DNA of 50,391 nucleotides, taken from the NCBI GenBank assembly GCA_025201805.1, contig MU619275.1, positions 183,308-233,698 on the forward strand, in the 5' to 3' direction. The notes below the pieces were generated by a model. It did not search any database. It was given only the letters and a program-made list of their open reading frames with translations, and was not told the DNA's origin. The first letter of the stretch is position 1. Each line of letters begins with the position of its first letter. Positions 16,659 through 18,639 of the stretch are shown in pieces. Source of the DNA: Parasitella parasitica (taxonomy: Eukaryota; Mucoromycota; Mucoromycetes; Mucorales; Mucoraceae). A program made the translations under genes and the position numbers.

Positions 16659-18639
16659 CTATTCCTCGGTTGTCTCGACCGGACCTTTGTATGACTTACG
16701 ACCAGAAACAAACCAAAACATGACTGAAAAGCCCATGATGCCACAGATCATGACTGATGCCCAGTTCATTGTATCAGCAGCGACAGGAGAGACTGATGGA
16801 ATACAAAGAATGACGCCAAAGAATACGACCCAAACACAGCTGATGACGTTAAGCGGAATGCTCAATTTCCCCAAGTTGAAAGGACCTTTGGGCATGTCAT
16901 TTCTCACCCAAATAAGACGACACAGCAATGGCAGACCGTACGAAACGTTAATAGAGATAACAGCTGCGCTCATGATAGCTTGCCAGTACACTTCAGATCC
17001 AAAACTCTGCATGCATATAACCAAATCATTAGTATCAAATTAGCTCTTTCCATGTAAAAATAACTTACAGGCATAATAAGGATAATTGAAATAAGCAGCT
17101 GCAATATCAAGGCGTTTGTAGGGACATTCGTCTTGGGGTCAAGTTTATACCAAATCTTGGAGTAAGGGAAGCAGCCATCTCTGCTGAGAGCCCAAAAAAT
17201 GTGAACAGTTGCCAAAATTGAATTACAAAGAGAGCAGAATTGGGCAACCAGCATAATTACCAAGAAGAATACGCACAACTTGTCGTTTGTAGCTTGAGTA
17301 AAGAAAGTAGCGATTGGCATGCTGGAATTGACGATTGCATCAACATCTTGAATAGAGAAAAGCGTGATGAGGATAAGTGCAAAACCTTGGACAACTGCAC
17401 TGACAATACAGATGATGATGCCTTGCATAGACAGCAAATTTAGCGATGCTTGTTATATAATATGCATAAGATTTACCGCTTCTACTTACCGCGTGGGGCT
17501 GTAACATCTGCTCTCTTTGTCCCTTCTACAATTTGAGCACCACATTCATAGCCCAGTGGAGAAAAACGAAGATGTTAAGTCTTTATGCTATTTGCAGCTA
17601 TCATCGTCATCTTAAAAAAGGATTTAATACTTATCTAATGTCCATCCACTTTGAAGCTACATAAGAAGAGCATGCAAAAATTAGTATTTCAAGCTATAAT
17701 AGGATCGTTTGCACACGACTTACCAATCCAAGTAGAAACGCCATTCCCTTATTATCGTAGCCAGTACGGTTAATAAATTCAGTAAACACCCATTTAGCGC
17801 TTTGGTGAGTAGGAGCCATAGCAGGAACACAGCAGATTATGATAAGTGTGCCAATGCCAACCCAAAATATAATGAATTTGTTCATGAGGGAACTAAACTT
17901 CATGCCCAGCCAGTTGCAGAACGTAGCAAAGATGAATATGCCACAATAAAGCCCAACATACGCTCCTTGAGAAGTGATCTGCGAAACATTGAGGACGTTT
18001 GCAATCCCAAAAATGAAGTCAACACTGGACCACGCAAGAGTGATGTTGGCTGTGACCAAACCTATACAATATACATAACCACTGATCCATGCCATGACTA
18101 TGCATATAGAGGACAATAAGGACACAACATTATACACTCTATATTTTTCTCAATGGTTGCTTTCTTACATGGACCCCATTTCTTATTACTCAATAAGAAC
18201 GACCAAGAATACACACCGCCAGCTAGTGGATAAGCAGATATGACTTCGGCCATAGAGAAAGCAATACATAAAACGAATGGCACCACGACAATCCAACCCC
18301 AAAATAAAGACGAAGGTCCACCCGCTACCATGCTACCACCAAAGCCCACCATCCAGTTGGGAAGAATGCCCATGGTCGTAAATCCAAAGCCTGCCTGGAC
18401 AAACAGGCTGATTTCGCGCTTGAATTCTTGCTTGTAGCCCAAATCTCGTAGTCGCTGAGCATCATAGTCCAGGTTGCTGGATTCAACATGTTGAATATCT
18501 AATTTTTCGTCTGAACCTGCCTTCCCTGCATCCTATATACATATGACAGGATGTTGGCCATATTGAGGATATAAATATAAAGTGCCATATTTACTGTAAC
18601 CACATTCATGTTATCTTCGATTTTATCGTGCTCAACCAT
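16659..18639 (-). CDS. Amino-acid/GABA permease (APC family)
   Basis: Seven exons on the minus strand: 18639-18595, 18532-18169, 18097-17724, 17656-17635, 17555-17490, 17421-17069, 17006-16659, giving 523 residues, the usual length. It is a 12-helix proton symporter of the APC superfamily, GABA/choline (Uga4/Bat1-like) branch. Family marks: FGFTTMGILPNWMVGFGGSM, the sequence FSMAEVISAYPLAGGVYSWS, a 22-nt exon encoding LQSGWTL, joined to VGYECGAQIVEGTKRADVTAPRG, then the IPLNVISCVWVVFFG region near the end. All but one intron are GT-AG with GTAAGT-like donors. The one between exons 4 and 5 has no usable GT-AG solution and reads as ATAAGT...CCAC. Substrate (GABA, other amino acid or amine) cannot be assigned from sequence alone. 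Confidence 0.9.
17556..17634 (-). other. Putative AT-AC intron in the permease
   Basis: 79 nt, read on the minus strand from 17634 to 17556. The exon-intron junction is AG|ATAAGT, the U2-type consensus with A in place of G at +1; the 3' end is CTCCAC|TGGG after a pyrimidine tract. A CTTAAC branch-like element lies about 19 nt before the end. Joining here gives Trp-Thr-Leu-Val-Gly-Tyr-Glu in frame, the expected family motif. Every AG between the donor and that motif leads to a stop or a wrong frame. Confidence 0.7.

Follow-up and report, generated by a model that had tools for sequence, protein, structure and literature searches.

The fourth intron of a permease gene of Parasitella parasitica, as judged from sequence, is very probably a genuine AT-AC intron that is removed by the major (U2-type) spliceosome. 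The gene lies on the minus strand (18639-16659) of the window, the 50,391-nucleotide stretch of contig MU619275.1 analyzed here, and its seven exons encode 523 amino acids. The whole protein belongs to the Pfam family PF13520, AA_permease_2 (8.1e-53; 180.3 bits against a gathering score of 27). The six introns measure 62-79 nt each; intron 4 is AT-AC and the other five are GT-AG. In the gene model, exons 1 (18595..18639), 2 (18169..18532) and 3 (17724..18097) are followed by intron 3 (17657..17723, 67 nt, GTAAGT...TAG) and by exon 4 (17635..17656), a microexon of 22 nt that encodes LQSGWTL (counting the L before it) and ends on the first base of a V codon. This confirmed the normal GT-AG intron and the 22-nt exon of the original prediction. 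Intron 4 (17556..17634, 79 nt, phase 1) consists of the donor ATAAGTATT, a likely branch CTTAAC and the pyrimidine-rich tail CTTCGTTTTTCTCCAC. Exon 5 (17490..17555) completes V, continues with GYECGAQIVEGTKRADVTAPR, ends on the first base of a G codon and is followed by intron 5 (17422..17489, 68 nt, GT-AG), exon 6 (17069..17421) and exon 7, including the stop codon (16659..17006).

The borders around intron 4 read AG|ATAAGTATT...CTTAACATCTTCGTTTTTCTCCAC|TGGG, with intron ends ATAAGT...CTCCAC. The predicted junction unites exon 4, ending in ...GGACATTAG, with TGGGCTATG of exon 5 and gives the in-frame peptide GLLQSGWTL-VGYECGAQIVEGTKRADVTAPRG. The paralogue on contig C17, which is 63% identical and intronless here, reads SGWALVGYECGAQ across the site. 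To place the junction, donors in the first 80 nt were combined with acceptors at least 20 nt beyond, disregarding dinucleotides, and the joins were scored against the matching stretch of 73 of the 78 homologues considered (P0001, P0002, P0008, P0027 and P0076 were left out because this stretch did not fit the search pattern). Of 2307 in-frame joins, 683 were free of stops, and the AT-AC join ATAAGT...CTCCAC scored highest among these (131.6), in agreement with the originally predicted in-frame junction after WTL. AT...AC termini are thus what the reading frame demands, with neighboring joins of unrecognized ends 1.5 points lower. These runners-up (130.1) were AG-CC and GA-CA joins in which L replaces V, and since the margin is only 1.5 points, the exact base relies on splice-site sense and on the read-through proteins of Mucor described below, not on the score alone. 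The AT-AC intron was confirmed in this way and is presumably removed in vivo. A genome search with the 79-nt intron, which skips very common words, found it at one place, its own, and gave no sign of a dispersed repeat.

Conventional ways of processing the region were rejected. GT-AG and GC-AG joins failed on both the reading frame and the homologue score: the best in-frame GT-AG join scored 49.2 against 131.6 and was 13 residues short, which bears out the earlier statement that every AG acceptor gives a stop or the wrong frame. For skipping of exon 4, 12 AG acceptors were listed, of which four were in frame and three of these four ran into a stop; the remaining one, at 17515 within exon 5, would cost 21 residues. 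Retention of intron 4 gives ...GWTLDKY-stop. The stop at the fourth codon (DKY-TAA) might instead serve a regulatory switch, in which an unproductive or alternative transcript arises by retention or by the use of a GT-AG intron that begins with GTATTA inside the AT-AC one. There is a GT at 17630 with AGs downstream of it inside intron 4, and an Arabidopsis reporter is described in which a U2-type AT-AC intron encloses a GT-AG one (PMC5473141). However, retained introns usually contain stops and GT/AG pairs commonly occur by chance, and such a switch would supplement AT-AC splicing rather than substitute for it; we regard it as very unlikely.

We further compared the site among homologous proteins. 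The protein search found 335 proteins among 7996 scored candidates, and the best 120 of these were listed. Among the best 80 homologues that were aligned, 76 were uninterrupted through the site of intron 4. Three enter the intron after GWTL, namely the orthologues of Mucor velutinosus (P0001, GWTLDKYSRNLHGGTKRAD), M. bainieri (P0002, GWTLDKYLPKSTKKHKRLTFLFCFYWVMNVVLKLSKEPKELMLQLLVV) and M. atramentarius (P0008, GWTLDNMKSNVSFLFLLGYECGAQ), and P0076 (Zychaea) lacks eight residues at the site. A search with a 146-aa piece returned 12 proteins, including P0129 (two contigs, 14 members), which terminates GWTLDKYLNLFIVFGF, reading into the donor of intron 4. The same oddity was observed at the same residue in the three Mucor species and P0129, a recurrence that goes beyond chance. 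Back-translation of LDKY gives YTN GAY AAR TAY, that is, G|AYAARTAY, and the window has TTA GAT AAG TAT; the DNA of the relatives is deduced here from proteins and is subject to codon degeneracy and possible model errors.

The acceptor side could also be read from two of these proteins. The M. bainieri model continues out of frame across the next exon, ending in the tail WVMNVVLKLSKEPKELMLQLLVV, and a single DNA can encode both this tail and the proper-frame GYECGAQIVEGTKRADVTAPRG over 22/22 residues, compared with 0/2000 shuffled tails. The codon before the shifted-frame stretch is TAY, so the intron there would end in AC or AT, not AG. In P0008, Leu precedes GY; if the exon starts with TG|GG, the last intron base would be C or T. 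The deposited permease models of the three Mucor species thus appear to be wrong at intron 4, probably because gene prediction made no provision for AT-AC introns. In a midpoint-rooted tree of 40 rows, six of them (P0129 included) under half filled, P0001, P0002, P0008, P0129 and the window's protein formed one clade with support of 100/98. Mycotypha africana P0028, which has a clean model, adjoins this clade. Elsewhere in the tree, the C17 paralogue (L003, G000:C17) is very close to P. parasitica P0022.

These observations bear on the possibility of a sequencing or assembly error in an intron that is truly GT-AG. Only one assembly represents the intron, and either end is one base off GT...AG. 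Such an explanation needs two independent errors precisely at both end bases, yet the donor reading is shared by three named Mucor species and P0129, and M. bainieri has a non-AG acceptor; an error is therefore hardly credible. The argument that a joint change of both ends speaks against a sequencing error thus gained support from the relatives. The orthologue comparison suggested with the original prediction was achieved in part: relatives share the oddity, as read from proteins rather than DNA, and the GT donors found elsewhere are likewise peptide read-outs.

Those read-outs point to the direction of change. P0134 shares 95% identity over 131 residues with P0012 and P0016 (a paralogue in M. 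bainieri and M. lusitanicus) and reads L-GGN-AAR at the same codon and phase, so that its +1 base is G. The peptide LSKS of Umbelopsis vinacea P0137 is compatible with A|GTAAGT provided that the first Ser is AGY. In P0127, of the other paralogue clade, the reading ...L-GTN-GGN implies an intron tail that ends in G, and a more distant relative, P0132, is compatible with a GT donor placed one base upstream. Judging by the apparent GT donors that a Mucor paralogue and Umbelopsis have at this site, GT-AG seems to be the older state and AT-AC the derived one, and a change from GT-AG to AT-AC is likely. An intron with GT-AG ends at this phase-1 site would have been the starting point, with G1 turning into A and G-1 into C in the ancestor of these Mucor species. 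We consider it slightly better than an even chance that this was a direct major-class switch by paired changes of the first and last bases in the ancestor of the Mucor clade, kept in at least five lineages; it would be a natural counterpart of the paired suppression of end bases, with no U12 ancestor.

Other homologues varied around the site. Five of the six paralogues inspected in the genome (C17, C152, C61, C2 and C82) are uninterrupted through it. The sixth, C160 (L017, G000:C160), apparently has a GT-AG intron about one codon downstream on our reading of the DNA, and hence not at the same position as intron 4. P0128 and P0132 give hints of introns a few bases away from the site, which together with C160 may reflect sliding or repeated gain. 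P0129 is continuous over the place of intron 3 but enters intron 4 (window 17556-17723), and in P0139 intron 3 is apparently present and intron 4 absent; the two introns flanking the microexon may therefore come and go independently. No DNA of a relative was found in bacterial and archaeal contigs.

To assess which spliceosome could act on intron 4, the genome (30.7 Mb, 232 contigs) was searched for minor spliceosome components. U6atac was found over the cut-off (64.5 bits), and U12 (49.1 bits, E 1.5e-7) and U4atac (47.9 bits, E 5.2e-6) were below their cut-offs of 53. The matches contain recognizable cores, AAAGGAGAGAA in U6atac and ATGAGTAAGGA in U12, as compared with the human sequences. 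U11 had no match in the genome search, although such a search does not show absence, and CENATAC (PF14968), a profile that the control genomes cannot test, had no match in the genome. The snRNA search suggested earlier thus succeeded for U6atac and fell short of the cut-offs for U12 and U4atac. The RPS13 gene (L025, G000:C110) has a textbook U12-type GT-AG intron after ...PPTWK (198 nt, phase 2), with the sequence GTATCCTTTTTT...CTGCCTTAACCC...AATAG, the donor GTATCCTTT, the branch CCTTAAC and the end TAG. With U6atac over its cut-off, U12 and U4atac below theirs and this intron in RPS13, a minor spliceosome seems to be present in the genome.

We then compared the pairing of intron 4 with that of the RPS13 intron as a control, using the 5' end of U1 and a piece of U2. 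The donor of intron 4 formed a duplex of -6.0 kcal/mol with U1 and -1.3 with the genome's own U6atac, while the RPS13 donor gave -2.2 with U1 and -7.2 with U6atac; the five GT donors of the permease gene ranged from -2.0 to -10.9 with U1. Beyond +1, the donor ATAAGTAT matches the U2/U1 consensus, with G at +5, and its description as a U2 consensus with G1 changed to A stands. Because it pairs with U1 and not with U6atac, the donor is of the U2 type. For the branch, the duplex energies were -3.8 with U2 and -3.4 with U12 in intron 4, and -3.0 and -6.4, respectively, in RPS13; the branches of three GT-AG introns of the permease gene gave -4.4, -2.4 and -7.8 with U2. The branch ACTTAAC agrees with CCTTAAC at 6/7 positions, but the CTTAAC branch, originally likened to that of U12 introns, does not decide between the two types. 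A branch profile built from a sample of 24 GT-AG candidates in open frames was too noisy and was set aside.

The presence of what seems to be a minor spliceosome keeps another route in play, in which intron 4 would be a U12-type AT-AC intron whose donor has decayed, or else a hybrid that enters the minor spliceosome via its CTTAAC branch. The snRNA matches and the RPS13 intron are consistent with this, as are the branch, which has 6/7 positions of the consensus CCTTAAC given in PMC3033335, its five contiguous pairs with the genome's U12 next to a U2 pairing only about as good, and the fact that CTTAAC is still possible at the equivalent place in M. bainieri (MGN YTN ACN). The S13 U12 intron is itself on record for Rhizopus and Phycomyces (PMC2846911), and the low score of U12 here fits the third stem of U12 described as atrophied in basal fungi (PMC4133162). 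The donor, in contrast, differs at 4/8 positions from the U12 rule ATATCCTT (RTATCCTT, with T allowed in place of either C but not both; PMC2846911) and pairs far less with U6atac than the RPS13 donor does. In addition, the tail of intron 4 is pyrimidine-rich, the stretch before the acceptor in M. atramentarius is WSN AAY and not CTTAAC if the deposited model runs straight through, and GT donors of the U2 type apparently occupy this site elsewhere. Processing by the minor spliceosome is therefore unlikely. The original reading of intron 4, which did not choose between the two spliceosomes, is supported.

Under the preferred reading of a U2-type AT-AC intron, U1 would bind AG|ATAAGTAT even though the +1 base is mismatched, U2 would attach close to CTTAAC, and the terminal A and C would replace the contact normally made by the first and last G of an intron, which is well established and named in PMC2831892. 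Introns of this kind are known (PMC2831892, PMC7072748, PMC3033335, PMC5473141), and intron 4 probably belongs to this rare class; AT-AC accounts for 0.019% of annotated fungal splice sites (PMC7072748). SCN4A intron 21 and other sodium-channel introns ('AT-AC II', PMC2831892) and the AT-AC introns of Caenorhabditis elegans (PMC3033335) likewise combine AT-AC ends with a G at donor +5; use of the major spliceosome is described there as shown for SCN4A and otherwise presumed (PMC2831892, PMC3033335). Unlike these, intron 4 lies next to a 22-nt exon in a permease of a Mucor clade, and other genes apparently have GT donors at this site. With U12-type AT-AC introns, intron 4 shares the end dinucleotides and CTTAAC, but its donor differs from their ATATCCTT and hardly pairs with U6atac. 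Within Mucoromycota, Table 2 of PMC2846911 gives EST-based totals of 'other AT-AC introns', with 3 in Rhizopus oryzae and 31-32 in Phycomyces blakesleeanus; these likewise failed the U12 test.

In PMC2831892 it is proposed that existing U2-type AT-AC introns descend from U12-type AT-AC introns in which they are trapped as a subtype, since switching would require both ends to change simultaneously. Searches of open-access literature by AT-AC introns and their switches, a set that lacks most subscription papers, showed no paper on intron 4 or on a U2-type switch from GT-AG to AT-AC. What this case adds is the shared distribution in a clade, the apparently wrong gene models and the probable direction of change. 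U2-type AT-AC introns are scarce, and the present locus is a legible example from a single fungal clade, in an organism where both spliceosomes are apparently present. The locus also exposes a practical problem, in that the models deposited for three Mucor species are apparently wrong at intron 4. If true, a direct switch would be a route to U2-type AT-AC introns that bypasses a U12 ancestor.
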